The notes below the pieces were generated by a model. It was not told the origin of the DNA. It did not search any database and saw only the letters and a list, made by a program, of their open reading frames with translations. Made by a program: the position numbers and the translations under genes. Shown piece by piece: positions 3,658 to 25,371 of a DNA stretch of 28,626 bases (position 1 is the stretch's first letter; each line of letters begins with the position of its first letter). The stretch covers positions 1 to 28,626 of IMG/VR virus record IMGVR_UViG_3300042301_003626. One strand, written 5' to 3'. Source of the stretch: a virus.

Positions 3658-6600
3658 TTATTCGTAAAATATACCTAATATCTGATTTAGTGGTGCAAAT
3701 GTACCTGTTAGTTTATATGTATTACCTTTATAAACAAATACAATACCTTCGTTTGGTACTATTTTATCTTTACCACCAATACTAGCTAATCTACTTAATT
3801 CCATTTTTAATTTAGCTATTTTAGATATATCACCACTACCTCTAACTTTTTCAGCAGTTGATTTTAATCTATCTTTCATACTACGAACAGCTGCATCTGG
3901 ATTTACAGTTAATACTGAACCCATAAATGAAAGAACATCTGCCCCAACACCCAAAAATATTTCTTCAAATTGTCTAACATTATCTTTTTGTTGTTTAGCT
4001 ACATTTACTTTATCATTTTCAATTGCCCAACTTTGAGCATCTTTATCAGCAATAGTATTTAAACGGAATGATTTATCACCAAATGCCCATCTTCTTACTA
4101 ATGCTTCCTTTTCTAATTTTTGTAATTTAACTTTTGATTTATTTACAAAATCTTCCCACCATGCTTGATGATATTCAGATACACCATCTTTATCGGATAA
4201 TTGGAACTGAAATTGTATCTTTTGTAATTGAGTAAGGTACTTTGTTTGTTTTGAACTTAACTCCTCTTTTTTAGGTAGTTCTGTTACAGGTGGACCTTGT
4301 ATTGTATACTTTGATTGAACATCAGCGTTCACTTGCTTAATCATTCCTGCTAACATAGTTGCTGCTCCCTGATTTGCACTAATCGCAGAACCCTTTTCAT
4401 CGTAACAAGTTGTATTATGGAATACTAATAAAGCCTGTCCATAAGGAATTACATTTACCGAAGTTGGCCATATTACTTCCAAATTCATAAAACATTTTCC
4501 TTCATCAAATATCTTTTTTCGTTGTGCTTCCGAAAGTGATTGAATTGCTACGGATAAATCTTTCATAGCGAAGTTATATGCATCGGTTAATCCACCTCTA
4601 CCACCAAACTTTGATGCTACATCTTCAATTCCCATTGCCCCTGCTCCGGCATTTTGTAAATGTGATTTATTTCTAGCTGCAATTAATCTACCATTCTTCC
4701 AACTAATTGCCAATGCTTGTCCATCGGTTTTTTCTCTTGTCAATTCTAAATTACCAGTTAATGCTCCTTTGATAATCTTTTTTAAATCACCAAAAGTTAA
4801 ATCCATATCATCAAATGGATGTGACATATGTCCATATGCTCCACCTTCGTTTAGGGATTCTTTAAATGCAGATGATTTGATTTTGTGCCAACCACCGCCT
4901 GGCATTCTGAATATTCTTGCGGGAATTTTGAATGTAGAGCCTATTGGTAATTTACTTTGATATTTTTTATCAATATGAATTACTTTTGTTATAAATTCTT
5001 TTGTTTTATTATCTACTCCTAATAATTCTACTTCAATTTCAACCGGCTGTCCGCCTATCTTAACCTTACCTGCGAATAAACCTTGTGTTAATTCATTTAG
5101 ATTTTTTTTTTCGTCTAATCCCAACTTATCAGTAACATGGGTAACTTCTTTATATCCGTAGTTTCTTAACTTTCTAGCTACATCGTTTCTATCAGCCTTT
5201 GGGTCGTTACATACTACCACTCCAATTTTCTTTCTACCAAATGAACCAGCGGTATCCCACATCTTCATAATTGCTTTAAAATGCCAATCGTTTGGACCTA
5301 CTTCATTGAATACTGATTGTGGATTAGATTTCTCTTCACCTCTTGGAATTCTGAATGTAGTTGCTTTCTTTCCGTTGATTGTTGGCATCCCATAGTCATC
5401 AGTTCCAATATCTTTAACGGTAGTTTTTTTGTTTTTAAACTTACCCATTAAAACAGTATCACCCTTATCAACATCTACATTGATATCTTCATTATAAATT
5501 TGTTTGTTGATTCTACCATATTCTCTCATTAAGATTCCAGCTACTGCATGTGCTTTGTTTTCTATTGGAGAACCATCTGCTCCATCGGTTTCTGCATTTG
5601 TAACCAATCCCATCTCATCTTGCTTTCTATGAGCCATTTCATGTGCAAGTGTTCTTAAAATATCAGCAGTTAATCTACCTTCGGTTGCTACATATATTGA
5701 TTTATCATCTGGATTATATCCACCCAATGATGTTTTTACTTCTGCAAACTCTCTACCACCAACTAATGTAATATTTGGTGTTTCTTTTAATTTTAATCTT
5801 TTAGTTGCAAACTCTACAAAATTCTGAATTGATTGTTGTTTTGATTCTGAAATATCCTCTTTCATCAAATCCATTGCTGCATTTTTTAAATCAGATTCAG
5901 GTTTGTTTTTTTTATATGATTCAATAGATGCCAACATTTGTTCATCGGTCATCTTATATGTTCCCATTCTCTCACCTATTTTCTTTATTAGGTTCATCAT
6001 CATATCTTGTGGATTTGGTTGATTTGATTTATCATCTATGGCTTCCAAAATACCACCCGTTACAACGCTCAATACAGCACCACCACCACCTGCTTGTAAT
6101 GCGCCAGCTCCAACAGATTCAAACGCAACATGCTTAACCATATCTTTACCTAAATGTGTACTAAATCCTAATGCTCCATGTGTAAATGCACTAGCCGCAC
6201 CGTGTGTTGCTGCTTGTCCAATGGTTTGACCTGCATATGCGGTTACATTTGCAGTTGTACCGATTCCTTTAGCTGCTAAAGCTCCTACTCCAGCTCCAGC
6301 CACTGCCATACTAGCACACATAACAGCGGCATCCATTGCTGTTCCTTTTATTCCTTTTAATTGCTCACTTCTTTCGTACCAAGATTTCTTTGCTAATGCT
6401 TTTTCTCTTGGAGATAAATCTTCTCTGAATACAGGTTCTTTTGTAGTTTTAGGTCTACCTCTCCAATCTTTAGCTTGAACGGGATTACCTTCTTCGTCAT
6501 GTACATCGTGTCCATGGCTATCTTTTTTATAAACAGGAACTTCTTGCATTTTAGGCTTCATATTTCCAAAAAACCCCTTATCACCTTCTTGAGTATAATC

Positions 6601-8022
6601 AGACCAATTTACTTTTTTACCAGTTTTTTCGTCTTTAATAGTACCCAATTTACCTGAAGTTGCTATTGAGTACATTCCTTTACCAAATTCTTTATATTGG
6701 TCTACTTTATGTGCAATAACATGCCCAACTGCTTTACCAACCTTATGTAATTTATCTCCAGTCCAATCATTTAATTTTTCATACCAACCTTTTCTAGTTT
6801 CAGATTCAGGGTTGTTAGTATCTTCAGCTGCTTTTTTCTCATCATCTGATAAATCAGCCATAGCTTGGTGTAATTTCTCTTTTACTTCTGCTTTTTTCTT
6901 ATCCCCATCAGTCATTTCGGCAGAAGATTTTAATTCTGCTCCACTTAATTTTTGCTCAGGAGGAGGTGCTTGTTTTCCAGTATCTGCTCCACCTTTTTTA
7001 TCTGCAGTTGGTTCTTCTTTTTTCTTATCTACTTTACCCTGTGCAGTTGCTCCTTTATTAACAGGCTGACCTGGTTGAGATGGCTTAGGTTCGTTAACAG
7101 GTGCATCGGAAGGCCCTTTAGACATTGCTTTTTTCTTAACTGCATCAATTTCTTTTGGAGTTAATGTACGAATTTTACCATTATCTGATTTGTGGGTAGC
7201 CGGTTGCCCCTCTTTACCATAATACCCACCACCTAAATGGGTTAATCCCATTTTCTCTGCTTCAGATTCTTCGTTAAAATATGTTCTAGTAAATTCTTCA
7301 AACATTTCTTCCATTGCAGCTCTACCAATTAATTCTGCAATTGGGTCATAAAGATATTCATCATCTGAAGTTGATTCAGGTGAATTTCTAAATTCTTTAT
7401 TTTTTCTTTCGATATCTTTTACTTGTTCTTCTGAAGGGTAGCCTTTGTATAGTTCTTCATTTAATTTACCTGTTATCATATTGAATATATCTTTGTCAAA
7501 TTTTGGATATGCTTTCGTAAATCCTTTTTGTTTATCTTTATCATCGCCTTTACTTAACCAATTACGAACATCAGTTCCACTTATAGCGTTATCTTCCGCA
7601 GGAACTGCATAAACATAACCAATTTCATCATAACCATATCCAGTCTTACCATTATATGGTTTAAAATATTTACCTGCTAATCTATCTGCATCTTTTTGTC
7701 CAACTGCTGCAACATAGGCAGTAGTCTTTCCATCCATACCACTTAAAATTTCTTTTGGTGCATATGGGTTTTTTACTTGAACTATTTTATTTGGAGATAT
7801 ACCAAACATTTTAGTCATTATAGTTTTCTTTTCATTAAAATTAAAAGGAGATTTTGGTCCTGAAGTATCATTAGAAGTTCCTATGTAAACATTATTTGCA
7901 CCAAACTTAGAAACTAATTTCTGATAAGTAGCATAATGTCCTTTATGGAAGGGTTGAAATCTACCAGCGTAAACTACTACTACTTTTTTAATTTCAGGTT
8001 TATCTATTTCTTTTATATTCAT
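3658..8022 (-). CDS. Giant multidomain 'polyvalent' protein: HxGH nucleotidyltransferase + HExxH metallopeptidase + ATP-ligase-type nucleotidyltransferase
   Basis: This 1454-aa protein carries at least three catalytic modules. Residues 14-185 look like a nucleotidylyltransferase of the NMNAT/cytidylyltransferase superfamily: GRFQPFHKGH (20-29, HxGH) and ISGTDVR (147-153). Residues 305-405 are a Lys/Glu/Pro-rich linker. Residues 560-660 form an Ala/Gly-rich hydrophobic stretch (possible membrane-active or core segment). Residues 740-835 contain a zinc-peptidase motif HEMAH (794-798) with a downstream Glu (E821) as a possible third ligand. The C-terminus looks like a covalent nucleotidyltransferase of the DNA/RNA ligase type: motif I EKTDG (1097-1101, K1098), motif III FMNLEVIW (1178-1185), motif IV EGIVF (1425-1429) and motif V YKLTG (1436-1440). 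The frame is unbroken. The combination fits virion-packaged proteins injected with the DNA. The domain calls rest on motifs read by eye. The substrates are unknown. Confidence 0.8.
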   Translation of the reverse strand: MNIKEIDKPEIKKVVVVYAGRFQPFHKGHYATYQKLVSKFGANNVYIGTSNDTSGPKSPFNFNEKKTIMTKMFGISPNKIVQVKNPYAPKEILSGMDGKTTAYVAAVGQKDADRLAGKYFKPYNGKTGYGYDEIGYVYAVPAEDNAISGTDVRNWLSKGDDKDKQKGFTKAYPKFDKDIFNMITGKLNEELYKGYPSEEQVKDIERKNKEFRNSPESTSDDEYLYDPIAELIGRAAMEEMFEEFTRTYFNEESEAEKMGLTHLGGGYYGKEGQPATHKSDNGKIRTLTPKEIDAVKKKAMSKGPSDAPVNEPKPSQPGQPVNKGATAQGKVDKKKEEPTADKKGGADTGKQAPPPEQKLSGAELKSSAEMTDGDKKKAEVKEKLHQAMADLSDDEKKAAEDTNNPESETRKGWYEKLNDWTGDKLHKVGKAVGHVIAHKVDQYKEFGKGMYSIATSGKLGTIKDEKTGKKVNWSDYTQEGDKGFFGNMKPKMQEVPVYKKDSHGHDVHDEEGNPVQAKDWRGRPKTTKEPVFREDLSPREKALAKKSWYERSEQLKGIKGTAMDAAVMCASMAVAGAGVGALAAKGIGTTANVTAYAGQTIGQAATHGAASAFTHGALGFSTHLGKDMVKHVAFESVGAGALQAGGGGAVLSVVTGGILEAIDDKSNQPNPQDMMMNLIKKIGERMGTYKMTDEQMLASIESYKKNKPESDLKNAAMDLMKEDISESKQQSIQNFVEFATKRLKLKETPNITLVGGREFAEVKTSLGGYNPDDKSIYVATEGRLTADILRTLAHEMAHRKQDEMGLVTNAETDGADGSPIENKAHAVAGILMREYGRINKQIYNEDINVDVDKGDTVLMGKFKNKKTTVKDIGTDDYGMPTINGKKATTFRIPRGEEKSNPQSVFNEVGPNDWHFKAIMKMWDTAGSFGRKKIGVVVCNDPKADRNDVARKLRNYGYKEVTHVTDKLGLDEKKNLNELTQGLFAGKVKIGGQPVEIEVELLGVDNKTKEFITKVIHIDKKYQSKLPIGSTFKIPARIFRMPGGGWHKIKSSAFKESLNEGGAYGHMSHPFDDMDLTFGDLKKIIKGALTGNLELTREKTDGQALAISWKNGRLIAARNKSHLQNAGAGAMGIEDVASKFGGRGGLTDAYNFAMKDLSVAIQSLSEAQRKKIFDEGKCFMNLEVIWPTSVNVIPYGQALLVFHNTTCYDEKGSAISANQGAATMLAGMIKQVNADVQSKYTIQGPPVTELPKKEELSSKQTKYLTQLQKIQFQFQLSDKDGVSEYHQAWWEDFVNKSKVKLQKLEKEALVRRWAFGDKSFRLNTIADKDAQSWAIENDKVNVAKQQKDNVRQFEEIFLGVGADVLSFMGSVLTVNPDAAVRSMKDRLKSTAEKVRGSGDISKIAKLKMELSRLASIGGKDKIVPNEGIVFVYKGNTYKLTGTFAPLNQILGIFYE

Positions 8023-8108: not shown

Positions 8109-9518
8109 TTAAAGTTTTACATTTATCATCCAAGCATTATCTGATATTTGCTCTTTTGATACTAAATCGTATTTAATTTGAGCTATACCATCCTCTTTAT
8201 AATTCAATTTTTCTTTTTTCATTTCTAAAAAAAATCTTCGTTCATTTTTAGCAGTAGTTTCTCCTTTAGCCCATTTTCCATTTACAAATCCTTCATCAAT
8301 GTGTGGTAAAGAAAGAAACCTACCCTCTCTACGATATGGAATTATATTATTAATCACATCAAAAGTTTCAACCCCTTTAACTACATTGAAATAATTTACA
8401 TTAGTATTGCTAGTTGATAATTCAAAATATGGAGTTTCTTTATTTTTTAATACAATATCTTCTATTTCTTCTTTTTTAAAAAACTTATCCCAAACTTTAA
8501 CTTCTGCTACTTTTCCTTTTAAAAATGGAGCTATCATATCAGTAGTTATATCTGAATTTTTTCCTATGTAAAAATCTGAATCTATTTTCTTTAATGTGCC
8601 CTCATAATTAGAATAGCTTTCTTCTACTACTCCATTTGTTGTATTCTTTATAAGTTTATTATTACAATAAAAATATATATTTTTAGATTCCGAATCAAGT
8701 GATAATGTTATCCAAGTCCATTCATTAAAATTACGCTTAATCCACCCATAGTTAAAATGATTGTTAGAGTTTCTAATGGAAGAACATATTGCTCTAGAAT
8801 TATTAAATCCAATTCCATATCCATCTTTACTATTACTTCTAAAAATAGGATACTCTATAAACGATTTAGATTCATCTCCTACTAACCAATAATTATATTT
8901 TTCCGACTGATTATCAACACTACATAATATTGAAATAGTATGCGAATTAGATAAAACTGAATGTAACCCTAAATCTTTTGGTATCTGAATATATGAATCA
9001 TTTCCATTAAAACTAAAATACGATTTATTTGTGTATTTTGCAAATATATGCGTATCTACCATATTTTCAAATATACATCTCCAAAATAAATCATCATCCT
9101 CCATTCCCCAATCCCAATAATCATTTGAATAACCATTGGTTTTTACAACTTGCTCTTTTGTAAATAATACAACTCCACCAAAATATTGTTCATAATTTAA
9201 TTTATATTTGTATTTTGAAAGTTTTGTAGAAATATGCGTTGGTAATTCATTTGGATACGAATAATCACAATTATCGTTTTCAGGCAACATATCCACATCG
9301 TGAAATGCTACATAATCGCACCCATCATCAAATGCATGTTTAGCTGCAATGTTTTTCATTGCTCCTCTATTAAATAACTTATCATCGGTTTGATGAGCTA
9401 TATAAAAAGAGTGTTCAATACCTTTTTTATTAAGAAACTTTGTAAGATGTGGAATTAGAGTTTTTAAATGAGTTTCTCTATTCTTATATGGAATGCATAT
9501 TCCCAATTTATGTACCAT
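8109..9518 (-). CDS. Family 7 galactosyltransferase-like enzyme with a nested LamG/ConA-like lectin domain
   Basis: This predicted sugar-nucleotide glycosyltransferase has residues 1-150 that follow beta-1,4-galactosyltransferase (GT7) order: LGICIPYKNR (5-14), FNRGAMKNIA (49-58), FHDVDML (72-78, metal-binding DVD 74-76), YFGGVVLFTKEQV (112-124) and WDWGMEDDDLFWR (135-147). Residues of about 165-355 look like a laminin-G/concanavalin A-type beta sandwich (SYFSFNGNDSYIQIP at 166-180, FYIGKNSD at 316-323, GKVAEVKVWD at 335-344). The GT7 pattern then resumes near the C-terminus (NERRF 425-429, DGIAQIKYDLV 443-453, MINVKL 464-469). It lies right after the fibre and adhesin genes, so it may glycosylate virion proteins or host surface glycans. 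The acceptor is unknown. Confidence 0.82.
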   Translation of the reverse strand: MVHKLGICIPYKNRETHLKTLIPHLTKFLNKKGIEHSFYIAHQTDDKLFNRGAMKNIAAKHAFDDGCDYVAFHDVDMLPENDNCDYSYPNELPTHISTKLSKYKYKLNYEQYFGGVVLFTKEQVVKTNGYSNDYWDWGMEDDDLFWRCIFENMVDTHIFAKYTNKSYFSFNGNDSYIQIPKDLGLHSVLSNSHTISILCSVDNQSEKYNYWLVGDESKSFIEYPIFRSNSKDGYGIGFNNSRAICSSIRNSNNHFNYGWIKRNFNEWTWITLSLDSESKNIYFYCNNKLIKNTTNGVVEESYSNYEGTLKKIDSDFYIGKNSDITTDMIAPFLKGKVAEVKVWDKFFKKEEIEDIVLKNKETPYFELSTSNTNVNYFNVVKGVETFDVINNIIPYRREGRFLSLPHIDEGFVNGKWAKGETTAKNERRFFLEMKKEKLNYKEDGIAQIKYDLVSKEQISDNAWMINVKL

Positions 9519-9533
9519 AACAATTTAAATAAC

Positions 9534-9977
9534 TTATATAAATAATGCTCCTCTTATAAGTATGGAATATTTTGAATAAGGTAGATAAATAGTATTTCCA
9601 TATACATTTACGCTTAAAAACATACATCTATTTCTAACACTAGCTCTTTCTTCAAATTGAAAATCATTAATTAATACATCTTCTAATTTGTAATTTAAAA
9701 TTGATATAACTTTATTATTTACAAAATCTTCGTATAAATTTTTAACAAACATATTTTTTATCTCACCATCTACTCTAATTAATACTTCCGAATTTGTATG
9801 AAATTTTATTCCATTTAAAATATAGTATGTATCTACTTTATTAGATTTAATTGATGTGATTTTTTCAGTAGTGTAATTTTTCTTTGATATAGACCAACCA
9901 CTAATGGAATTATTAGAAGCTATATCAAATATAGGAACAATTAAAGTATTGTAAGTAAGTATATTCGTAATATCCAT
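9534..9977 (-). CDS. Hint-like (intein-fold) protein lacking catalytic residues
   Basis: Residues 50-145 of this 147-aa protein align by eye with the second half of the Hint domain at the end of the 1628-aa protein just upstream. YYILNGIKFHTNSEVLIRVDG matches YYVFNNRLRATYEHPIFIKRG, and the later LSVNVYGNTIYL corresponds to ININIEENDVYF. The block B histidine (TxxH) is replaced (HTNSE), the conserved N-terminal Cys is absent, and the terminal His-Asn is absent (it ends IRGALFI). It should therefore be unable to self-cleave. It begins 2 bases after the 1628-aa gene stops and ends 15 bases before the galactosyltransferase. It could be a decayed duplicate or a repurposed binding or chaperone module. 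Confidence 0.62.
   Translation of the reverse strand: MDITNILTYNTLIVPIFDIASNNSISGWSISKKNYTTEKITSIKSNKVDTYYILNGIKFHTNSEVLIRVDGEIKNMFVKNLYEDFVNNKVISILNYKLEDVLINDFQFEERASVRNRCMFLSVNVYGNTIYLPYSKYSILIRGALFI
9537..9544 (-). promoter_or_regulatory. TATTTATA element upstream of galactosyltransferase gene
   Basis: The coding-sense octamer TATTTATA lies 18 bases before the ATG at 9516-9518, overlapping the last codons of the 147-aa gene. It belongs to the same recurring upstream motif as the sites at 665, 8026, 20983 and 26998. Confidence 0.3.
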
Positions 9978-9979
9978 TT

Positions 9980-12900
9980 TTAAGCTTGGTCTTTTGGTTG
10001 AGCAAAATTATGAACTAATATACCATCTGCAAAATATACATCATTTTCTTCTATGTTTATATTAATAGTTTGTACACTCTCATCTATTATATCAATTGAT
10101 GTAATTATTTCAAATTCATTATCAGATGTAAACATATAATCTCCAATTGTTACATTTTCAGCAGGTTCAAACATACAAATATCACCTCTCTTTATAAATA
10201 TAGGATGTTCATATGTTGCTCTTAATCTATTATTAAATACATAATATTGATTGAATGAATTATCATTAATATCATATATGATAGATAAACCTTCTTCATA
10301 TTCAAAATTATTTGTAGAAAAGTTTTGCCAAGCAAATTCCTGTCCAGCATTTAACCCATTAATCGACATACTCTTAACAATATCTCCTATAACTAAATCT
10401 TCAACATTTTTTAAAGAGCCATCATACATTAAAACTTTTGTACCATATACTAAACAACCATCTCCACCAGAACAAGCACATAAACTACTATACGAATCAG
10501 ATTTATGCACAACTTCAAGTGTACCAGCCGATGTACCCTCACAACCTGTTGCCGAATAAGGTGTTATAGTAACATATATTTGTACATCACATGGAAACCC
10601 AAATAAACTAAGAGAGTAAGTAGTACCATATGCACGGCCGGAATCGGATGTAATTGAAGTGGTAACATTACCATATCCATCTGTAGCTGCCCAAGAAATA
10701 GCATAATAAGAGTTACTATTAGAATTACCTCCAGAAGGTCTATTAACTCTATATGTAAATGAGAAGCAACCAGACTCTACATTTAAAAAAACATAAGTAC
10801 CGGCTGCACCTGCTGCGTAATTTGTGTACGGATATGATGTACCAGTAACCAAAGTAGTACCAGCACTATTTTGTAATATTACTCTATAATATTTTGTTGA
10901 ATTTCCTGTTACGGTTATAAATGCATTGTATGTAGTATTTGCTGATATACCATTATAATTGTATGAAGTATTTGTAAATGTAGAATTATCCGTACTTTCT
11001 TGAATAATCAATCTTGTTGCGGTATCTATTTGACCCGTTCTATATTCTACATATATTCCACCACATTGACCCGTTTGAGTTAATATATTAACAATATTTT
11101 GAACACCTCTTGTCTTTAACACTACATAATAGTCTGTACCTTGTTGTGTATTGTTTGAAGCTTTTTGTCCATGCAATGTATATGTAGCAGTTGCATCATA
11201 TACCGATGGTGCTCTTAATAATGCCATCAATCTAAAGTTACCACTAATACCACCTGTGCCAAATAAAGTAGCATTTCCTATGTTATCACCGGAATTAAAC
11301 ATTTGAAATGATTTAATACCTAATATATCTGTGCCAGTTGCGTTTGCATAAGGACTTCCGGCATAATCTCTAGTTGCTATTACTTGTTGATTAGTACTAA
11401 GTGTATAAGTAAATGTTCTAAACATTCCATATGTAGGAGTACTACCTGCTGTAACAGATACACTTATGGTAGTATATGCACCTGGAAAATTAGAATATGT
11501 TCCCTTCTCATCCATACCGGATACATTATGTTCATATACTATAACATAATCATCTACAGTCATATTATCAATACTGATATTTGTTCCAGTTGACCATATG
11601 GCTCTTTTATCGGTAAATCCTGGAGTTAATATAACAGGTGCACTAGATTGACCAGGACCAACATAAGCATATACAGTAGGCTGGCCGCCTTCATTAGTTA
11701 CATTAAATGTATAATCTAAATCCGAAGTAGTTGCACTTTGTTCGCCTGATGCAAATGTATTACCCCATGTATCTGTAAATTTAACTCTAACTAAAGTAGT
11801 TCCGAATGTACCTGGATCGTAAGATGAACCAGCGATATCTACCCAACTACTTCCATTATATCTTTGATAAACATATGTTAAAGCATCTAAATTTCCATTA
11901 TAATAATCAATAGCTCCATCAGGTCCTGTTAATGTACCACTACCCAATCCAAATTGTAAATCACTATATCCTTTGCTTACATAAATTACAATACTCCAAG
12001 AATTACCGCTAGTACCTAATCTTCTTCCTCTAACGCTATATGTTTTTGTAGAAGTTAAAGTTGCTTCACTTCCATCAAAATAATAATCATATAAATAAGT
12101 AAATAAGCCAGGCCCTTCATAAATTTGATTTTCATCTATTTGGTATTCTCTTGCATAATAATTCAATGTTATATTAGTACCTACCTGGCCTGAAGTTGGT
12201 GTGTATTCAAATGATAAATTTCTAGTCTTTCTACAAAATGTCCCATCGGTAGCTATTCGGTAATATCCAATTGAAGGTGAATCTGGTGAATTTTCATCAT
12301 TGACTGTTATACCTGAAAAACTCGATGGATTTGTATTTTGAGAAAGATATGCGTACGCAGAATTATCATAAAATGTACCATTAAAATCGTAATAACCTGC
12401 TATTGGAGGACCATATGAAGAATATGAAATCTCGTGTGTTATAATATTTCCTCTAATTGCATAATCACTTGTAATACCACTAATTAATGTAGAGGTTAGG
12501 CTTGGTGGTTCATTTAAAACAGATACACCTGAAGATATTAGTTGATGTAAATAATATCTCGATGCATCGATTTCATATTTTAAATAAGCCATTAAAGTTG
12601 CTATACCCGTTACATTATTACCACATTCTGCCGAATCGTATAATGAAAATGTAGCTGAATCAAAGCTAGTTGCTGAATCGGTGATACTTGCTTCCGATTT
12701 ACCAGCAGGTGATACATTTGTTCCCGTAGGTCTAGTTACATAATAACTATCTACTGATATTTTTGCGAAATTACCACTACTTCTACTTACTCTTGCTACA
12801 ACACTACCCACTTGAGATAATGTACCAGATGATGGAACACCTGCAACCGAATAACCATAAGATTGTCCAGGATATCCATATACGGTCAAAGAAGTTTCTG

Positions 12901-14866
12901 CTGTATCCGATGTCGTATATGTTCCCCCACTAGCAACAATTCTATAAGTCCAAGTCTGGTCTGAAGTGGGTGCAGTATAAGTATGTGAATACGAACTACT
13001 CATATTACCACTATTTAATGTGGTGTATGAACCAGCTCCAACTTTATAAGCAAATGAATTTAATGTAAATGAGTATTGTGCTAAGCTATTTGCAATAGAA
13101 TTACTCGCTCCATTATAATAATTACCATTTACCCAAGTAGTAGTTAAATTTATAGATGTAGAACTTATTTTATATTGAGTTGTAAAAGATTTAGTTAGAT
13201 TATAACCATTACCATCTTTTAAAGATATAACATGGCTAGCCGTTCCATCATTTACATTTGTACATGGATTATTAACAACCACTCTAACAACATTAGAAGA
13301 AGGTTTACTAATGGTAGCAGTAACAGTACCACCCGTAGTAACTGCCGTTATTGTTGGAGTATTATATCCCGTATCAGCTACTCCGCCAATTGTAACACTA
13401 CCATCAAAACTTCTATCTCCACCTGTTAATAGATTAGTTTGATTATCCATATTAACAATACCCTTTTGCGGAACTAATGCTTCGTTTGATTCTACCCAAG
13501 TAGAAACTTCATTAAAACTGTCCGGAGTATATGTTCTTCTAACTCTTACTCTAATTTGAACATATTGTGCAGTATTTGTTTTTCCTGCAAATGATTGAGC
13601 AGAAATTGAATTAGATGAAACAGTTACACTACCACCCCAATCCGTATATGTTCCACCTGCATCTTTTGAACGGGCTTGATATTCATAAGTTCTTGAACCA
13701 TAGGAAGCTGCTACTACACTATCAAATGTGGCAGACCAAGTTTCAGTTCCAGGCGCATATGTTACACTTACATTTGCGGTTGGTGAAACTTGCACAGTAG
13801 TATTAGATGTAATATGATTTCTAATTGATGCGTTTTCAAATGAACTTATACTAACTCTATGAGTTTTTGCACCTAATGTTGAATAATATACAATTGGGTC
13901 TGCATCATTAGATGCGTATCCAAATTTATAACCAGTACCGCTTCCTACAACCCAGTCATATGAAATATTTAATCCTTGAACATTATAATTTACAGTAGAA
14001 TCTAATGTATAATCTACATATGGTTCACTAATCGATGCATTAGAAATACTTACCGATACAGGTCTCCTCATTATAGGTAAACTCGTTCCATTAGCGGTAT
14101 CCGCAGTTGGAGTATGAGAATCCGTTACAACTAATGTTATTTGTTTATCGGTTACAGTTGATGCGTTATTAAATGAATATGGATTAGCAGAACTTGCTCC
14201 ACTATTCCAATTATAAATGTATGGTGAAATACCACCTGCTACATTTGCATTAAATGAAATTGAACCCGTTGTGTAATTATATGTAGTAGTTCCACTTAGG
14301 GATGGTGTTTGCGTTATAGATGTTATTGTTAAATCTAATGGATAAACATATACAGTCTTACTATCATTTCCCGTCTTATTTGATGAATTTATATTTAATA
14401 CTAATTTTAAAGTATTAATGGAGTTTGGAACTACATACGAATTAGCAGTATCAACATACACTCCATTAGCAAGTCCAACATTTCCATTTATATTATAATA
14501 TTCACCTGTATCTGAACCATTTACAAATATTTTTAATCTTGCAGTTTCCCCAGCAAGCATACCTGCGATTGAATATTCCCAAGTAATTTTTTTACCACTA
14601 TTAGAGTCAGATGTATCCGGACTAGCAATTGATATAATTGTAACCGTTGGAATTTTTCCATCAAATTCTATAAATTCATATTGTTGTCCATAAGGTCTAG
14701 CGGATGTACCTGATAATGTTCCTGGAGTATCTGGTAAATCTCTTACACCACCCCCAATAGAACCCGTTAAAAATATAGTAGCAACATAAGAACCACTTAC
14801 AGTTGTTGTTGCCGTATTTAATCCAGCTGAAGTTCCTAAATCACCTAATTTAATATTACTTGCCAT
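9980..14866 (-). CDS. Large beta-rich adhesin/tail-associated protein with C-terminal self-processing Hint domain
   Basis: This 1628-aa protein is rich in Ser, Thr, Gly, Tyr and Asn and reads as a chain of Ig/PKD/fibronectin-like beta domains (for example repeated SGGISPYIYNW, TYEYQARSKD and TWTYRIVASGG segments), as in phage receptor-binding or tail-decorating proteins. The last about 158 residues form a Hint domain: CLVYGTKVLMYDG (from C1471), TYEHP (block B, T1551/H1554), and DGILVHN ending in H1619-N1620. The residue after Asn is Phe, not Cys/Ser/Thr, so classical splicing is not expected. Cleavage or linkage to a nucleophile (bacterial intein-like behaviour) is more likely. The start overlaps the preceding fibre gene by 11 bases, so translation is coupled. 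Confidence 0.8.
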   Translation of the reverse strand: MASNIKLGDLGTSAGLNTATTTVSGSYVATIFLTGSIGGGVRDLPDTPGTLSGTSARPYGQQYEFIEFDGKIPTVTIISIASPDTSDSNSGKKITWEYSIAGMLAGETARLKIFVNGSDTGEYYNINGNVGLANGVYVDTANSYVVPNSINTLKLVLNINSSNKTGNDSKTVYVYPLDLTITSITQTPSLSGTTTYNYTTGSISFNANVAGGISPYIYNWNSGASSANPYSFNNASTVTDKQITLVVTDSHTPTADTANGTSLPIMRRPVSVSISNASISEPYVDYTLDSTVNYNVQGLNISYDWVVGSGTGYKFGYASNDADPIVYYSTLGAKTHRVSISSFENASIRNHITSNTTVQVSPTANVSVTYAPGTETWSATFDSVVAASYGSRTYEYQARSKDAGGTYTDWGGSVTVSSNSISAQSFAGKTNTAQYVQIRVRVRRTYTPDSFNEVSTWVESNEALVPQKGIVNMDNQTNLLTGGDRSFDGSVTIGGVADTGYNTPTITAVTTGGTVTATISKPSSNVVRVVVNNPCTNVNDGTASHVISLKDGNGYNLTKSFTTQYKISSTSINLTTTWVNGNYYNGASNSIANSLAQYSFTLNSFAYKVGAGSYTTLNSGNMSSSYSHTYTAPTSDQTWTYRIVASGGTYTTSDTAETSLTVYGYPGQSYGYSVAGVPSSGTLSQVGSVVARVSRSSGNFAKISVDSYYVTRPTGTNVSPAGKSEASITDSATSFDSATFSLYDSAECGNNVTGIATLMAYLKYEIDASRYYLHQLISSGVSVLNEPPSLTSTLISGITSDYAIRGNIITHEISYSSYGPPIAGYYDFNGTFYDNSAYAYLSQNTNPSSFSGITVNDENSPDSPSIGYYRIATDGTFCRKTRNLSFEYTPTSGQVGTNITLNYYAREYQIDENQIYEGPGLFTYLYDYYFDGSEATLTSTKTYSVRGRRLGTSGNSWSIVIYVSKGYSDLQFGLGSGTLTGPDGAIDYYNGNLDALTYVYQRYNGSSWVDIAGSSYDPGTFGTTLVRVKFTDTWGNTFASGEQSATTSDLDYTFNVTNEGGQPTVYAYVGPGQSSAPVILTPGFTDKRAIWSTGTNISIDNMTVDDYVIVYEHNVSGMDEKGTYSNFPGAYTTISVSVTAGSTPTYGMFRTFTYTLSTNQQVIATRDYAGSPYANATGTDILGIKSFQMFNSGDNIGNATLFGTGGISGNFRLMALLRAPSVYDATATYTLHGQKASNNTQQGTDYYVVLKTRGVQNIVNILTQTGQCGGIYVEYRTGQIDTATRLIIQESTDNSTFTNTSYNYNGISANTTYNAFITVTGNSTKYYRVILQNSAGTTLVTGTSYPYTNYAAGAAGTYVFLNVESGCFSFTYRVNRPSGGNSNSNSYYAISWAATDGYGNVTTSITSDSGRAYGTTYSLSLFGFPCDVQIYVTITPYSATGCEGTSAGTLEVVHKSDSYSSLCACSGGDGCLVYGTKVLMYDGSLKNVEDLVIGDIVKSMSINGLNAGQEFAWQNFSTNNFEYEEGLSIIYDINDNSFNQYYVFNNRLRATYEHPIFIKRGDICMFEPAENVTIGDYMFTSDNEFEIITSIDIIDESVQTININIEENDVYFADGILVHNFAQPKDQA

Positions 14867-17800
14867 TAGCTAAAACCTTTTTTACATCTTCTAATTCTTT
14901 TTTCAAATTTTGAATTTGCTTAACCATTACGGGAATTAATTCGTTGTAGTTTATAGTTAAATATTCTCCCATAATTTTTGTTTTAGTTAAATGTGGATAT
15001 ATTTTTTGAACATCCTGTGCTATAAATCCATAATGTTTATTATTGTTTTCATCATCTTTCCAACTATATGTTACAGGATGTAATTTATCCATATCTTCTA
15101 TTTCGGTATCTTCGATATCTACTATATCTTTTTTCAATCTTCTATCAGATGAAAGAGCTGTTGAAAAACCTGCTATATCACCTTTAACATGCATTTCTCC
15201 ATAATGTGCAAAAAACCCTGCTGATTTAATATTGAAATTTGATATAGTTGGAGTGCCCACATCGGATACTCTAAAGTAATTACCTTCGGATGAATTTGTT
15301 GCGTTAAATACGGCTTGCATACCTGCTTCCGATAATTCAACTTGCTTAGTTAAAGCGTTTGCAGTTAATGATGTCGTTTTTGCACTATATGTTACAGACG
15401 ATGGAGTACTAACAAACCCACCTTCAGTTTCAGCCCATATTGCATAACCTTGATAATTCGTACTACTACCACCATATCCTGTAAAGTTTATATTATATCG
15501 GCCGCCTCTCCATGTAACTCTTCTATATACACTTTGCAATGTATTTGATTTTGTTATGGCAAACGATGGACCAGTAGTTCCATTTCCTGTTGAGTTTACA
15601 GTATAAGTAACTTCCGGTAATTCTTCACTTGTAATTTGAGAATTTGGTGTAAATGTAGATACAGTTGTACCACCCGAAGTCGTTTTATAGGTCATTGCTG
15701 AATTTACTCCAATTGAACCATTCATATAAGATAAAGCTGTGGTAATTGTCCAACCCGTAATTTCATTTTCCATTTGTTGAATAGATGTAATGTTTGTACC
15801 CATTGCAGCATTCATTTGGTTTAAAAAATTAAAAACAGCAGTATTATCCGATTGCGGTATCCATCCCCATTCGGGTCTTGCGGTTGTTAAATTTACAGCA
15901 CCATCATCTACTAATGTTGACCAAGCCATTTGCCCAGCTGCATAATCTATACTATAATATGAACGAGTATTAGTTTCATTTAATACTTGAGTTACGGGTA
16001 CAGATTCATATACTACATCAATTTTAAATTTAAGTTTAGCTATAAGGTTAAAAGTAGAAGATGTACTAAGAGATGTTACAGTTTGAGATGAAGTTCCCAT
16101 TGTAGCAGTTGTAGATGAATTACCTGCGTATATCGTATTAGCTGATGAAATATTTACATATGAAGATGCATTTGTAGCAGCAATTGCGTTACCACTTCCA
16201 CCACTTATATCAGTTAACTCTCCAGGGTGAATATATACACGGTTACCTGCAAATGAACCACCGGGTGTACCTGTAATTTGTATGTAATTTTCAGCATCTG
16301 ATTCTCCTGCATTCAATGTAACTCTATTTTTTGAAATGCTGTTTTGAGATATAACCCAACCACCAATAGTTCCTTGAGTTGCCGTTATTTTTCCTCTAAC
16401 ATCGGCATTTGTTGCTACTAATGCTCCATCCAAGTTTACACTAAATGGAGCAGACCCAAATGAAGTATTTCCGGCAAAAAATCCTGCAGGTGATACCCTA
16501 GCAGAAGAATTAGTACTTAAATTACCAACTATTATGGTAGAAGTAGTTCCATTTAATTGTATACCTGATGTGGTACTACCTGCTTGCAGCAACCCACCTT
16601 GAATTTCAAAACCACCAATAGAACCGGTATCAGCCGTTAATGATGTTGCTGAAATTCTGCCACCAATATCTACCATATTTGTGGCACTGGCATCATATTT
16701 AAAATAATTACTACCACTAACAAAACTTACTTTTGGTGTAGTAGCACTTACAATACCTAACCATATACCATTGTTACCATATCCTTGCGTACCTTGTCCA
16801 ATTGAAACATACGGAGAAGTAGTACCTCCTTTTAAAGTTATGTTTGCAGCAGAACCATCTGAGTTTGTACCAACATTTAAAGTGTTTTTTACATAAGATT
16901 CATCAAATATTGCAATCTTAGCTGCTACAAAGAAATCTTGCTCACCTAAATATTGCCAATATGTATTATCATTACTAACTGCTGGCAGTTCTTTTACTCC
17001 AGTTTCACTTGTATGTTGTACTAAAGTTGCCCAATAATGAGTAACACCGCTTACGCTTTTATAAACAGCATCTCTTCTAGATGAACCTGCTACTGTTGTA
17101 TAATAATAAAGAGTATTATTTTTCCATTCACCTCTTAAAACAATTCCAGGTCCCGTTGCTCCCGTACTTCCATCCGTACCATCTGATGCAACATTTACAT
17201 TATGTGTTTTAAAAAATGAAGTAGTACTTCCTTCAGAATCCACAAATGAACCGGTTATACTTACAACTAATCCTGAAGTGCTTGATGGAGTAGTTGGGGT
17301 TATTGTTGCATATTTATCTAAATCAGTTGCAGAAACAGACCCATTTGTTACACCACTAATTCTAAATGTAGAATTTGCAAATGGAGATGTATTATCATAT
17401 GAAGATGAGTTTGCACCTTCTAAAACATTTATTCTGAATGAAGATGGAGTACCATATGTTCCAGTTTTACTCTTAGTAATAGTTTGCCCATCTTTTTCAA
17501 TAAATACAATAGTAGATGGTGCAGATGCTAATGCTTTTGAAACAGTAGCTACAACATTTTTTGTTCCAGTTGCGCCTTCACTATCCGTATAGTTTACAGG
17601 TATTGTTACCTGTGCTGTATTTGAAGTAATAGTAGATGCGTCTGATGTTATTGTTATAACATTTGAAGAAACTGAACCTGCTAATCCGTTTGTGAATGTG
17701 GGTGTACCAATTGAAGTAAATCTACTTGTTCCAGCTTCCAAAGCGGTTACCGTTAATGCAATGGGTGTAGCAGAACCACTTCCTTTTGAATTTGCGGATA

Positions 17801-20800
17801 TTGTTTGTGCTGATGGGGATACTGCTACTAATACATTTGGAGTACCTGCTTTTGCTTTTGAATAAGTTACTAATTTTGTAAACACACTATCACTACCTCT
17901 ACCATCTCTATATGTAACTTTTAAATTAATACTACCACTATCAGCTGATAAAGCTGTGATAGAATAGTTGTTATTTGTTAATACGGGTGTTACATTTAAT
18001 GAAGATGATATACTTGCACTAAATTTATTATTTCCAATTGTAGATGCGTATGAAATATCTTCACTACCAACTTTTACTGATATAGAACCACTACTTGCTA
18101 AGAATCCTCCGAATACACTTCCACCTGAATAAGCGGGAAATGTAGTATTTTCATTTGTTAAATTTACAGCTATCTGAGATTCTGCTATTACAGGAGTAAT
18201 TGTTATTGTATCAGTATATCCATCAAAATTTAAATCTTCTGCAAAAAATGTATATGTAGTTGCTCCAGCTGAATATGGATAATCGGCGCCATTTACATTA
18301 TAAGATTGCACTCCCGTAGTACCATTATTAGAACCAACAGTCAATGCCGGTTTGCCACTTCCACTTGTTACAGTGATAGCGTTTGATGTACTACCTAAAT
18401 TATTTCTTTTAACATCTATTGTTATTGCTTGACCCGATGGAGAAAGACTAACATCAGTCATTTTATAGAAAAATTGATTAGCGTTTGAAACCGCATTTAA
18501 ATTTTTACTCTTATCTCCTTTTAAAACACCTTCTATTTGTACGGATGAACTAAATCCATTTTGAGTAAATAAATAAGTTCCGCCATGTATAAGATTCGTA
18601 GGAGTATAATACGACCAAGACGCTGCATTTGTACCAAGCATAGCAACATCTTCATCATCATCTCCACTGTAAATTCTATAAACAGATTCAGTATAAAATC
18701 CAACCTGAGTTGTGCTTAATTTTTGTAATTTTGGTAAAAATGAACCAGAAGCAATTGTTAAAGAACCACTTACTATATTTGATGATAGTTTAATATCAAT
18801 AAAATCATTTGATTGTGCAGGCTCAAAATGATTATCAGGGTCGTATACAAATTGGTTTTTATTAGCTATTACTATAAAAGTTGCACCATCTGAACCATCT
18901 ATTCCATCTTGCCCATTTGCACCCTGGTCAACTCTATAAATGTTTACTAAATCTTGTACATCTTCGCATGATGCGGTATACAATATTCTTGTAACTTTTG
19001 GAGTAGTTAATGAGCCTGTAAAATTAGATACCGTTAATGTAGCTGAACCCGATGTTATATTTGTTAATAATCCTGGATAAAAAGGTTGAGAACCATAAAC
19101 TGATGGTTGTATATAATCTCCATTTTCATCAAAAGCGGATGAATAAAATATCGTTGAGCCTGTTAATCCAACTTTAACAATATCAAAATTAATAGAAGAT
19201 ACACCTATTGATTCTCCTGAACCTGAAAAACTAAATAAGTTTCCATCAGGAGTTACTGTTATACTTTTTCTAACAACCAAATCATTTCCACCTGTAAATG
19301 TAAACTCTTGATTTAAACTTACAGGAACATAGTTGTTATTTATATCATAAAATTCAAATTTAAAATCAAAAGTATCATTTTTAACTTTTGTAGGAACTGC
19401 TACATTTAAAGTTATCTCATTTGGAGAAAAATTTGTTTCTTGAGTTGCTCTTAAACTTATATTTGATAGTTGCCAATTTCCCTGATAAACAGCAAATACA
19501 ATAGTACCCGTACCATCAGCATCTGTTTTAAAATTAACTTGTTGTTTATCATATCTTATAAATTGAGAATTGGTAACTAATTTACCTATGTTTTTCCCCA
19601 ATCCAATATTACTACCTAAATTAACAAAAGCAGAACCACTACCATATATTTCTATTATATTATTTCCATATAAAGATGATGATAGTATTGGTGTAAAATC
19701 TAATTGGTATTCTGTATTCTTTAATAAATCAAGCGATGATGAATAATAAAATATTCTTTGTGGATAATCCGATGTATTTTGAATACCATCATCTAATAAT
19801 TTCACAGATGAAACTAAATCGGTATTATTTAATGTAGCAGTATAGTTTGTTGATGAATCATAATCTTTATATACCCAAAATTCATTTACTATATTTTGCG
19901 AACTAAAAACACCCGTTCTTATGTTTACACTACCACTATATTCATCAGTTTGTAATAATTCATTAGATTCTAATTGAATATCTTCTAATAAAGTATAATT
20001 TCCAATATCAGCTTTTCTACTTGCATATATTCTTAAACGATTTACATCACCACTAAATGCTTCTAAGTCAGTTAATTTAATCTTAGCAAATGATGAACTA
20101 ACAGATGAATTTGTAAGAGTTACACTTTCATTATATGCTAATGAAAAAGAAGCGGAACTGAAATTTTTTATAATTTGTGGAGAAGTTACCGATGATGTTT
20201 CATAATATGGAATAGTAGCATTTGCTTTATTCGAAGTTATTACATCTTTAATAGTTGTAGAATACGATTGATTTAAATTAGTAATAGTAATAGTTTCACC
20301 TTCCATAGATGATGAAAAACTACTTCCACTAATTCTTAATTCATACAAAGTATCGCCCTTAAATGTTTTAAAATTAGCTCCAGCTAATGGATTAATAGAT
20401 ACACCATCGACGCTACCACTTATTGTTTTTCTATTTACACTTCTATTATAAATTGGTAAAATTGTTTCTTCAATAGCAACTTTAGGTCTACGATAGAAAC
20501 GAATTTTAGAAGTATTTTGTAATAATGGATTTACATTTATTTGTTTTTGCCATCTAACATTATAAGTACCCTCCCAATTTCCAGGTACAGGATTTAATAC
20601 ACCATTGTTAGAATAATATTCTTTTAATTCTCCTAAAATTGTTATAGTACATGGACCGAATGAGGTATCGGGGTAAATATAAACAGCTACAACCTTAGAT
20701 GTACCTTCATAGTATTCGGGTATACCTTCACCGGGCTCGTTATATATTGTATTACCTTGAGAATCTTTTATTTGTATTTTAATAAGACTATCGGCAACTA

Positions 20801-20960
20801 ATTCAGGAGAACCTTGAATTAAGAAAGCGTTTTTACCACCTGTAAATACATCTGATAATTCAGTTATCTTAAAATAATTACTAAAAGGCGCAGTATCTTC
20901 AACTAATACATTGTATGTCTCTAATTTTTCATCAAATAGAGTTTTTTTAAGTAAAGCCAT
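14856..20960 (-). CDS. Long tail fibre with C-terminal S74 intramolecular chaperone
   Basis: This 2034-aa fibre has an N-terminal part rich in SSS/SGS/TGS beta repeats. Two short collagen-like Gly-x-y stretches follow (about 680-692, GANGQDGIDGSDGA, and about 1258-1270, DGTDGSTGATGPG). Between them lie tandem Ig-like repeats of roughly 100 aa (shared VSPSAQTIS / IEKDGQTIT and NYTDSEGATG / FVDSEGSTT segments). The last 99 residues are an endosialidase-type chaperone (peptidase S74): SDRRLKKDI (S1938-K1943 as the Ser-Lys dyad), HPVTYSWK, HYGFIAQDVQKIYP and a terminal coiled coil. This module trimerises the fibre and cuts itself off. The N-terminus should attach to the tail. It is the first gene of the fibre operon and is the main candidate for host-range determination. 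Confidence 0.9.
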   Translation of the reverse strand: MALLKKTLFDEKLETYNVLVEDTAPFSNYFKITELSDVFTGGKNAFLIQGSPELVADSLIKIQIKDSQGNTIYNEPGEGIPEYYEGTSKVVAVYIYPDTSFGPCTITILGELKEYYSNNGVLNPVPGNWEGTYNVRWQKQINVNPLLQNTSKIRFYRRPKVAIEETILPIYNRSVNRKTISGSVDGVSINPLAGANFKTFKGDTLYELRISGSSFSSSMEGETITITNLNQSYSTTIKDVITSNKANATIPYYETSSVTSPQIIKNFSSASFSLAYNESVTLTNSSVSSSFAKIKLTDLEAFSGDVNRLRIYASRKADIGNYTLLEDIQLESNELLQTDEYSGSVNIRTGVFSSQNIVNEFWVYKDYDSSTNYTATLNNTDLVSSVKLLDDGIQNTSDYPQRIFYYSSSLDLLKNTEYQLDFTPILSSSLYGNNIIEIYGSGSAFVNLGSNIGLGKNIGKLVTNSQFIRYDKQQVNFKTDADGTGTIVFAVYQGNWQLSNISLRATQETNFSPNEITLNVAVPTKVKNDTFDFKFEFYDINNNYVPVSLNQEFTFTGGNDLVVRKSITVTPDGNLFSFSGSGESIGVSSINFDIVKVGLTGSTIFYSSAFDENGDYIQPSVYGSQPFYPGLLTNITSGSATLTVSNFTGSLTTPKVTRILYTASCEDVQDLVNIYRVDQGANGQDGIDGSDGATFIVIANKNQFVYDPDNHFEPAQSNDFIDIKLSSNIVSGSLTIASGSFLPKLQKLSTTQVGFYTESVYRIYSGDDDEDVAMLGTNAASWSYYTPTNLIHGGTYLFTQNGFSSSVQIEGVLKGDKSKNLNAVSNANQFFYKMTDVSLSPSGQAITIDVKRNNLGSTSNAITVTSGSGKPALTVGSNNGTTGVQSYNVNGADYPYSAGATTYTFFAEDLNFDGYTDTITITPVIAESQIAVNLTNENTTFPAYSGGSVFGGFLASSGSISVKVGSEDISYASTIGNNKFSASISSSLNVTPVLTNNNYSITALSADSGSINLKVTYRDGRGSDSVFTKLVTYSKAKAGTPNVLVAVSPSAQTISANSKGSGSATPIALTVTALEAGTSRFTSIGTPTFTNGLAGSVSSNVITITSDASTITSNTAQVTIPVNYTDSEGATGTKNVVATVSKALASAPSTIVFIEKDGQTITKSKTGTYGTPSSFRINVLEGANSSSYDNTSPFANSTFRISGVTNGSVSATDLDKYATITPTTPSSTSGLVVSITGSFVDSEGSTTSFFKTHNVNVASDGTDGSTGATGPGIVLRGEWKNNTLYYYTTVAGSSRRDAVYKSVSGVTHYWATLVQHTSETGVKELPAVSNDNTYWQYLGEQDFFVAAKIAIFDESYVKNTLNVGTNSDGSAANITLKGGTTSPYVSIGQGTQGYGNNGIWLGIVSATTPKVSFVSGSNYFKYDASATNMVDIGGRISATSLTADTGSIGGFEIQGGLLQAGSTTSGIQLNGTTSTIIVGNLSTNSSARVSPAGFFAGNTSFGSAPFSVNLDGALVATNADVRGKITATQGTIGGWVISQNSISKNRVTLNAGESDAENYIQITGTPGGSFAGNRVYIHPGELTDISGGSGNAIAATNASSYVNISSANTIYAGNSSTTATMGTSSQTVTSLSTSSTFNLIAKLKFKIDVVYESVPVTQVLNETNTRSYYSIDYAAGQMAWSTLVDDGAVNLTTARPEWGWIPQSDNTAVFNFLNQMNAAMGTNITSIQQMENEITGWTITTALSYMNGSIGVNSAMTYKTTSGGTTVSTFTPNSQITSEELPEVTYTVNSTGNGTTGPSFAITKSNTLQSVYRRVTWRGGRYNINFTGYGGSSTNYQGYAIWAETEGGFVSTPSSVTYSAKTTSLTANALTKQVELSEAGMQAVFNATNSSEGNYFRVSDVGTPTISNFNIKSAGFFAHYGEMHVKGDIAGFSTALSSDRRLKKDIVDIEDTEIEDMDKLHPVTYSWKDDENNNKHYGFIAQDVQKIYPHLTKTKIMGEYLTINYNELIPVMVKQIQNLKKELEDVKKVLANGK

Positions 20961-21065: not shown

Positions 21066-21251
21066 ATGGTTATGAAATACTCAATGCTACAAATCAAAAA
21101 AGAAACCCATGAACTTCTCAAAAATTATTGTGAAGAACACGGGTTCAAAATGGGAAGTTTAGTAGAAAACTTAATTAAGAAACACATTGGTGTTCCTAAA
21201 CCTCAAGCGGGTGTGTTGAAAGCTGACAAGGTTAGAAGTCAATCTTACTAA
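21066..21251 (+). CDS. Small ribbon-helix-helix (Arc/CopG-type) DNA-binding protein
   Basis: This 61-aa protein is encoded opposite to all other genes. After a short lead the sequence reads MLQIKKETHELLKNYCEEHG then MGSLVENLIKKHI. This is a short beta strand (YSMLQIKK), an amphipathic helix, a Gly-containing turn and a second helix, the order of the ribbon-helix-helix fold. The C-terminal tail is Lys/Gln-rich. Alternative starts exist at codons 3 and 7 (Met), but ATG 21066 directly follows the phased AAACTAA boxes. The last 20 bases overlap the end of the gp47-gp46 fusion gene in convergent orientation. It is probably a transcriptional regulator; its target is inferred from the adjacent repeats. 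Confidence 0.72.
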   Translation: MVMKYSMLQIKKETHELLKNYCEEHGFKMGSLVENLIKKHIGVPKPQAGVLKADKVRSQSY

Positions 21252-24200
21252 ATCCATTTTCTTTTTTTATTTCTATCAATCCATCTACGATATCTCTCAT
21301 TTGTTCTAAGTGAGAAATAACCCAAATAAAATCGAATTGAGTTTTAAGATACTGCATCATCATAAATAGGGATGATAAGTTATCACTATCCAATGTACCA
21401 AATCCTTCATCAATTACTAAGAAGTTTGGACGAGGTAAATTACATACATTGATAAGTGCCACTCTAATAGCCAATCCACTTACGAATTTCTCCATACCAC
21501 TACACATCTCCAATGGCCATTCTTGGTCATCATAAACAATTTTGGCATTGATTGATTTACCATCGACATCCATTACTACTCCAAAATCAACTACTTGTGA
21601 AAGAATATTATTTACTTCATTCTCAATTACTGGCAATGCTTTTGAAATCAACTCATAAGGTATACCATCTCTTTTGACTGCATCTAAATAATAGGTGTAT
21701 AGGCGGTTCTTTTCTTCCAACTCCTTAACATCATTCATCTTACCTTTTATCCCCTCTATAAACGAAGATATGGAAGAAATAGAGCCATTCACACTTGCTA
21801 TATCCTTTGTAACTTTTTTGATTTCATCATCAATCTCACCTTTGGTTCGTTTTAGACCCAATATCACTTCATTAATTTGTGCATTCTTCTTAATAGTTGC
21901 TTCGTTATCGTGATATTTTTGAATATTAACTTTAACCGATTCTAATTGATGTTCTAGCAATTGTTCTTTACTACTCATTCCTTCTAACTCCGCTTCAGAT
22001 TTTTCTTTAATAACAATTGCTTTACTATATTTAACTTTCAAATCATTAAACACATTGTATTGTTCTTCCACACCTTCCATCGTATCCAATGTTTGTTGAA
22101 TACCGGTACAATCAACCAATGCTTCTCTAAGTATTTCTTTCAATTGAGGTAATAATTCTTTTACTCTCATTGCATCTTTTACAAAAGTATTGTCACAACA
22201 AAACTTACAATTTGGGTCGTATTTATGATTATCTAAATGTGAAATCGTTTCTTCTGCAGAACTTACATGCAACTTTGCAATATCATAAGTTTTAGTTGCT
22301 TCGGTTAATGCTTTTTGTTCTCGTTGATAATTTGAATATGCCGCTTCTATATCAATAGTTTGATTAAATAATTTTGTATCTTCTATTGATTGTGATAATT
22401 CATTTAAAATATTAGTTTGAGATTCAATCAATTCTAATTTGGCTTTCTTTTCTGCAAGAATATGTAATATATCCCTACCAATAGTTCCTTCTTGTTTAGT
22501 TAAACTATCCAAATCTAAATTACCATCCATTGGAGTAAGTTCTGCACTCAATCCAACAATTCTATTATTTAAATCAGTAGAATCAGTATTTAATCTACCT
22601 AATTCTTTTTCAAATTCTTTTAATTCACCCTTCTTATCTTTTAATTCAGTTGCCTTATCAGCTAATTCAGTTGTGAAATCAGTTTTCTTAAAGTTCTTAA
22701 TTAGGACAGATACTTCCTTAATATCTTCAGTAGCCGTTTCATATAATTTATCGAATACATTCAATCCCATAAATTGTGCTAACAAATCTTTTCTTTCTGA
22801 TTGGGATTTGTCTATGAAAAGTGCGTTATTACCTTGCAAAGATAAAGCAGTTAATACAAAATCTTCATACTTACCAACATATTGTTCGATAATCTGATTT
22901 GTATCCCTTCTCTCCGTTCCATTCAAAGAAGTCCTATCATCACCATCTTGTCTCCAAAATTGTACATCAACTTTAACATTTTTACCTTTGTTAATTGTTT
23001 TTGCAGTTCTTTCAATATGATAATCTAACCCATCGATTTGAAAGTGTAAGTGACAAACGAAATCCGATTTACGATTGTTTAGAATATTTTGAGCTTTATA
23101 AGCTCTACTACTCTTATCATATAAACAAAATGATATAGCATCAAATAGAGAAGATTTACCTGTTGCATTTGGTGCAAATAATCCCATTAACCCACCTAAC
23201 TTTGTGAAATCAATTTTGTTATTCTCTCCATAACTAAACATATTTGAAAACTCAAAACGAATCGGTTTCCATTGAATATTTCTTTGTACATCTTCATTTA
23301 CAATTCTACTATTTATATCTCTATTAATTCCTTCTAATTTTTCGATATCTTCTTTAGCTACAAACGGCATCATTCTCTCAATGTACTCATTTATAAGTGA
23401 GTTCTGATAATTAATATCCGAAATATCTTCAAAGTCTAATTTGTTTAATCTATTACCTGTTTTTGATTTAGAAAGAGAATCGGTTCTGATAACTGTGAAA
23501 TCCTCAACACCATATCTCATTTTAATTTCAGCCATTACTCTTTTAGTATCAGCAGAATCAGTATTAGATAAACGAACTCTTAAACGAGGTTTGTTTGGCA
23601 TATCTGATACGATAGGAACTTTACCATTATCAATATCCATAGTATAATACCCATACTCGTTATGAATATCAACCGCTTCGTAACTCATTGTATCCAAATC
23701 CCAAACAAGGAATCCATGCTTATCCAAAGTTTCACCAAAGTTTTGTTGAACTAATGAACCGGCATAAACTACCTTACATCCTTTTGGAGAAATCATCTCC
23801 TGTCGTTTGTGGATATCACCCAATAAGGCTAAATCGTATCCATCAAACATATCCGTTGTAAAATGACGAGAAGATACTACATATCCAATATCCGTTTGAG
23901 AATTATCAACTGGTCCGTGAAATAAGGCAATCTTTTTATTGCCAGATAAAGTTTCTGCTTTAGGCCAATTATCTTTGTTATCAAAAATACTGAATACTGC
24001 GAAATCAACATCACCGATTCCATAAACTTGTGTATCTCTTAGATATGTAAAGTTTGGCAGATTTAACGCCTCTACAATTGGAGTAAGAACATCCAATCTA
24101 TCCGAATTGTTCATATTACAATCGTGATTACCTGTAATAAGGATTGTTTCACATAATTTAGAACATTCGGTAAATAACCAACTAATCTCTCTAACTAATT

Positions 24201-25319: not shown

Positions 25320-25323
25320 AATA

Positions 25324-25331
25324 CAAATATA
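25324..25331 (-). promoter_or_regulatory. Possible Bacteroidota -7 box (TATATTTG) before primase
   Basis: In the coding sense TATATTTG matches the Bacteroidota housekeeping consensus TAnnTTTG, with TTTG 20 bases further upstream as a -33 element. It would place the transcription start at or next to the GTG start codon, implying a leaderless or nearly leaderless message. Chance is not excluded in AT-rich DNA. Confidence 0.3.
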
Positions 25332-25371
25332 TGAACAATATTTGATATTTCCAAATAATTTGGGAACTATT

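Follow-up and report, generated by a model that had tools for sequence, protein, structure and literature searches.

Organization of the locus

The analysed stretch of 28,626 nucleotides (the window) carries on its minus strand, at 8109..9518, an ORF of 469 amino acids, which its Pfam matches mark as a GT7 glycosyltransferase with a nested LamG domain; the plus strand opposite it is riddled with stops. Its N-terminal part (residues 1-155; 9054..9518, minus strand) is a B4GALT-like GT-A core, related by sequence and fold to B4GALT1 and B4GALT7, the sole matches of the protein among PDB sequences (spanning residues 2-154). The Pfam models Glyco_transf_7N (residues 3-86, E 4e-21, 75.3 bits against a cut-off of 27) and Glyco_transf_7C (residues 94-153, E 6e-21, 74.3 bits against 23) both detect this part. 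It contains a DVD metal motif (residues 74-76; 9291..9299, minus strand), which aligns with the DVD of the B4GALTs and includes the conserved D76, and the stretch WDWGMEDDD (residues 135-143; 9090..9116, minus strand), in which alignment and clade conservation point to the Trp loop and the catalytic acidic motif. A LamG/pentraxin-like jelly roll follows at residues ~156-391 (8346..9053, minus strand), as delineated by Pfam (Laminin_G_3, residues 171-352, E 2e-8, 34.8 bits against 27.6), predicted strands, couplings and fold matches. The last part (residues ~392-469; 8112..8345, minus strand), assigned from profiles and a truncation model, would supply the lid and final strands of the GT7 fold; it includes H406 (8301..8303, minus strand), a proposed counterpart, on the basis of clade conservation, of the metal ligand His347 of bovine B4GALT1. 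The original prediction had GT7 motifs running up to residue 147, and this holds: WDWGMEDDDLFWR lies at residues 135-147, and both GT7 models exceed their curated cut-offs. Two of its boundaries needed correction: the GT7 sequence resumes at ~392 (IIPYRREGRF..LPH406) rather than ~425, and the insert comprises ~235 rather than ~190 residues.

Two large fibre genes on the same strand lie immediately upstream of the gene. One encodes a 1628-aa repeat/fibre-like protein (9980..14866, minus strand) with a weak C-terminal Hint match (PT-HINT, 16.9 bits, below the cut-off), whose Hint-like end begins GCLVYGTKV and finishes VHNFAQPKDQA, suggesting, from its sequence, self-cleavage at a fibre C-terminus. 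The other encodes a 2034-aa tail fibre with an S74 chaperone (14856..20960, minus strand; Peptidase_S74 E 3e-17, PHROG tail fiber E 2e-21). The adjacency to fibre genes noted in the original prediction is thus borne out by these matches, and it is conserved in the clade of the window, in which a single copy is flanked by fibre genes and a 1454-aa protein (3658-8022, minus strand) whose N-terminus has a weak cytidylyltransferase-like match (20.4 bits against a cut-off of 21). An ORF of 147 aa without a family match (9534..9977, minus strand), found in this clade only, takes the position that a paralog (B, below) has elsewhere. Replication and recombination genes are also near (21232-25782). The terminase of the window phage is nearest to those of the Flavobacterium phages immuto (53.5%) and Microcystis phage Mel-JY01 (52.4%).

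The two GT7 segments as parts of one fold

A spliced family profile, built from nine relatives by joining the N- and C-parts and leaving out the insert, matched B4GALT1 in a single stretch (65-282, 157 bits, E 4e-45); the unspliced profile of 52 relatives ended at residue 152 (136 bits). When the C-terminal profile was used alone against 10,000 shuffles and two B4GALT tails (their letters taken from printed alignments), the C-terminus of human B4GALT1 ranked first and that of Drosophila B4GALT7 fourth among the 10,002 sequences. Among the top 300 mean-field couplings computed from all 321 sequences, pairs between the N- and C-parts are enriched over those between the N-part and LamG (OR 2.4, p 1e-4); this enrichment is modest inside single clades, where the comparison of N-C with LamG-C pairs is not significant.

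AlphaFold2 modeled the full chain with a pLDDT of 90.2 and a pTM of 0.86 from a shallow alignment of 52 rows, and Foldseek superposed the N-part on B4GALTs, most matches having an rmsd of 1.1-1.7 A across 152-157 columns. Since these alignments cover mainly the N-part and include few C-terminal residues, packing was probed instead by folding the protein without the N-lobe. The C-terminal segment, which in the full chain has a pLDDT of 84-95 except at residues 411-420, which are looser (70), then drops to 48-63 at residues 397-446 (in a model of residues 157-469), while LamG mostly retains 81-97, apart from two stretches of lower confidence that the full-chain model also shows. These computations show a LamG domain that is predicted to fold by itself, and a C-terminal segment that probably packs on the N-lobe, as judged from the loss of confidence and from sequence rather than from measured contacts. 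The whole-chain prediction suggested as a check on the nesting hence returned a confident model with a C-terminus dependent on the N-lobe, and the independently folding C-terminus that was to count against it is contradicted by the truncation. We accordingly find it very unlikely that the C-terminal segment forms a small domain of its own, with LamG merely lying between two domains. It is true that, scored alone against the whole chain, the C-terminal profile has only weak similarity to the B4GALTs (13.5 and 9.0 bits), which would suit such an arrangement; however, the predicted fold of the segment is lost once the N-lobe is removed, the segment holds a conserved metal-type His, and in one group of paralogs (C2) this His is lost together with catalytic residues of the N-lobe. 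Computation on sequences and models thus shows the GT7 halves of the window protein as one predicted fold with its active-site residues retained. The nesting of LamG within it, the central claim of the original prediction, stands on the one-piece spliced alignment, the C-terminal profile rank and the confident full-chain model.

The active site and the placement of the insert

Bovine B4GALT1 binds Mn2+ through Asp254, Met344 and His347 (PMC7565966), and in the human enzyme residues 338-365 form the lid, a Trp loop being described as well (PMC6198961). By alignment, D76 and H406 of the window protein occupy the places of the metal-binding Asp and His, and position 403, a Ser here and a Cys in 139/147 of clade A, may take that of the Met. 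The family tree comprises clades A (n=147, including the window), B (n=144) and C (n=30), the last including C1 (n=20) and C2 (n=10). The active-site residues are invariant in A and nearly so in B: D76 is kept in 147/147 and 144/144 sequences, respectively, and H406 in 147/147 of A, 143/144 of B, 19/20 of C1 and 0/10 of C2. D141 corresponds, in the alignment, to the position changed in the D211N variant of Drosophila B4GALT7. Given the alignment of D76 and H406 with the metal ligands, LamG enters just ahead of the metal His and the lid. The insert sits between the EDDD-bearing helix and the segment with the metal-binding His and mobile lid, so that its point of exit from the fold is the base of the lid.

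Of the features of a GT7 enzyme, the protein has the DVD metal motif (D76), the acidic motif of the catalytic site (D141) and, further along, the metal His (H406), as well as the B4GALT fold, seen in its N-part by rmsd and in its C-part by profile and truncation model; what it lacks is an uninterrupted catalytic domain. Such continuity is usual in solved GT7 members and is not strictly defining.

The insert has the LamG/Laminin_G_3 profile and jelly-roll fold, and matches pentraxins in Foldseek searches. In the AlphaFold2 model it is closed by paired strands at 158-171 and 380-389; the top LamG couplings (S166-V383, S169-G382, D174-N378) link 166-174 to 378-383, the pattern to expect where the two ends of an insert close it off. 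In clades A, B and C1, LamG is more variable than the GT parts; such variability would be expected where a domain meets variable ligands, be they glycan or protein.

Distribution of the family

The IMG/VR scans yielded 186 and at least 571 relatives, of which 80 were kept from each. Among the matches listed there are 427 ORFs with the GT7 N-part (counts that include repeated sequences; 321 are distinct), 414 of them also with the C-part. All 414 of these have the LamG insert, and the interruption spans 196-269 residues in 331/331 of the listed relatives measured. No insert-less relative occurs among the 427 listed: nine ORFs without a LamG match are short (113-192 aa) and come from truncated or short loci, and seemingly contiguous tblastn matches (e.g. 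L109, L120) turned out to be nested proteins. The nested GT7-LamG architecture is, as these computations show, fixed across the family.

The family is borne by uncultured aquatic phages, with enzymes that are animal-like. It had 0 matches in 50,697 records of sequenced phages at E 1e-5, only weak partial ones appearing at E up to 10, and none in PHROGs or NCBIfam; annotation pipelines thus probably miss it. Prokaryote genome assemblies gave two matches only, one in a Pelagibacterales MAG and one in a Flavobacteriales MAG, on short viral-looking contigs; these nested genes (L082, L083) probably belong to phage contigs binned into bacterial MAGs. In 295 genomes of one bacterial class, strong matches lie only on viral-looking contigs of G001; weak ones (L222, L223) were read as ordinary GT2 enzymes, and the second GT7C match of G003 (L097) is likewise GT2-like. 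Literature searches recovered no report of a GT7-LamG fusion.

Paralogs and gene neighborhoods

Outside the clade of the window, the gene belongs to a tandem array of two or three paralogs, often overlapping, in the order C-B-A, inside an operon of sugar and radical-SAM genes that include GT2-like, methyltransferase, radical SAM, epimerase and RmlC components. The B-A pair is present in 171 loci (not all independent), with a one-base overlap in 101 pairs. Across 137 distinct B-A loci the most frequent neighbors are a GT2-like ORF (125), a twitch radical SAM (124; NF033640, assigned through one member), a methyltransferase (113) and a LamG-type ORF (~65). Free-standing LamG proteins homologous to the insert occur in the same operons (L061:8938-9669, L037:10816-11481; LG profile 74-82 bits), and are a possible donor or derivative of it. 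Radical-SAM and GT2-like operon genes had no match in the 209-kb record of a relative of the window (a record that may be incomplete). As the clade of the window is without the sugar operon, the role of the enzyme may differ there.

In C1, D141 is kept and H406 mostly so, with E140 often changed and D142 always. In C2, examples of which stand at the head of C-B-A arrays (L021:2781-4235, L030:2146-3594, L031:2777-4246, L077:2758-4212), W137 is replaced by G, D141 by W/Y and H406 by N/D, each in 10/10; with these replacements, they have the appearance of GT7-LamG proteins that are catalytically dead. The joint loss of W137, D141 and H406 from both halves fits a single shared active site. The mean identity of LamG in C2 is 52.9%, versus 63.4% for the N-lobe, a ratio above that of A, B and C1.

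Functional interpretation

We favor a metal-dependent inverting GT7 glycosyltransferase whose nested LamG holds the acceptor, and which decorates the fibres or another virion protein, with a probability of roughly 55%. By analogy with lectin-bearing glycosyltransferases, LamG would keep the acceptor, a glycan or a glycoprotein, next to the lid, and acceptor binding and catalysis would in that way be physically coupled. The position of the window gene, immediately after two fibre genes on their strand, makes a glycan on fibres or another virion protein the likeliest product. In other phages, the C-B-A paralogs, together with the sugar and radical-SAM genes, would probably build a longer glycan.

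The same enzyme could instead act on the host surface, altering the O-chain or capsule, for instance to block superinfection, with LamG binding a host glycan; we regard this as a tentative second reading. T4-like pelagimyophages have a host recognition cluster in which glycosyltransferase and radical-SAM cassettes accompany the tail fibres, an arrangement that the authors read as O-chain modification (PMC7029224), and the tandem operons have content of the same kind. Against this, the window copy is alone, without sugar genes, and arranged with late structural genes, a setting better suited to virion decoration, for which reason we prefer the fibres as target.

LamG domains are known to bind proteins too. 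Somewhat more doubtful is the idea that LamG is a protein dock rather than a lectin, tethering the enzyme to a fibre or to its C-B-A partners: C2 keeps a well-conserved LamG despite lacking catalytic residues, and many operons have, downstream, a gene for a separate LamG protein homologous to the insert, but C2 amounts to 10 sequences only, and in A, B and C1 the greater variability of LamG relative to the GT parts speaks against it. A further, improbable conjecture would make the nested LamG a covalent counterpart of alpha-lactalbumin that gates acceptor use at the lid, with the dead C2 proteins keeping the lectin as scaffold or regulatory subunit of a stepwise C-B-A glycan assembly. Phages do use glycosyltransferases on DNA, and replication and recombination genes are near, but an enzyme shielding the phage genome by DNA glycosylation is scarcely credible here, as the direct neighbors are fibre rather than base-modification genes and we know of no precedent for a GT7 acting on DNA.

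On the preferred reading, the family supplies candidate enzymes for glycosylating phage fibres, and also, were the host the target, its surfaces. More generally, a lectin-type domain that lies inside a glycosyltransferase fold rather than being appended to it, fixed across a broad family of uncultured phages, offers a clear test case for asking whether catalysis can have acceptor binding built into it.

Comparison with known systems

With the animal B4GALT1 and B4GALT7 (CAZy GT7), the phage protein shares the DVD and WxWGxEDDD motifs, the metal-type His, a C-terminal DG(I/L)xx(I/L)xY and, as modeled, the GT-A fold; it differs in being phage-encoded, in lacking a stem or membrane anchor and in its interruption by LamG before the lid. 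A functional parallel might be drawn with lactose synthase, the complex of B4GALT1 with alpha-lactalbumin (PMC7565966), in that acceptor use might be governed near the lid by a partner without catalytic function, although in the phage protein that partner would have the LamG fold and be covalently joined and nested. The pelagimyophage host recognition cluster is similar in placing glycosyltransferase and radical-SAM genes beside the tail fibres of T4-like phages; the terms lectin, laminin and galactosyltransferase did not turn up in a search of that report (PMC7029224). Finally, the GalNAc-transferases and GnT-IVa are likewise glycosyltransferases with a lectin module, which tunes catalysis (PMC4432651, PMC9296478). 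In these, however, the module is appended, at the C-terminus in GnT-IVa and through a linker in GalNAc-T2, whereas in the phage protein it lies inside the catalytic fold.
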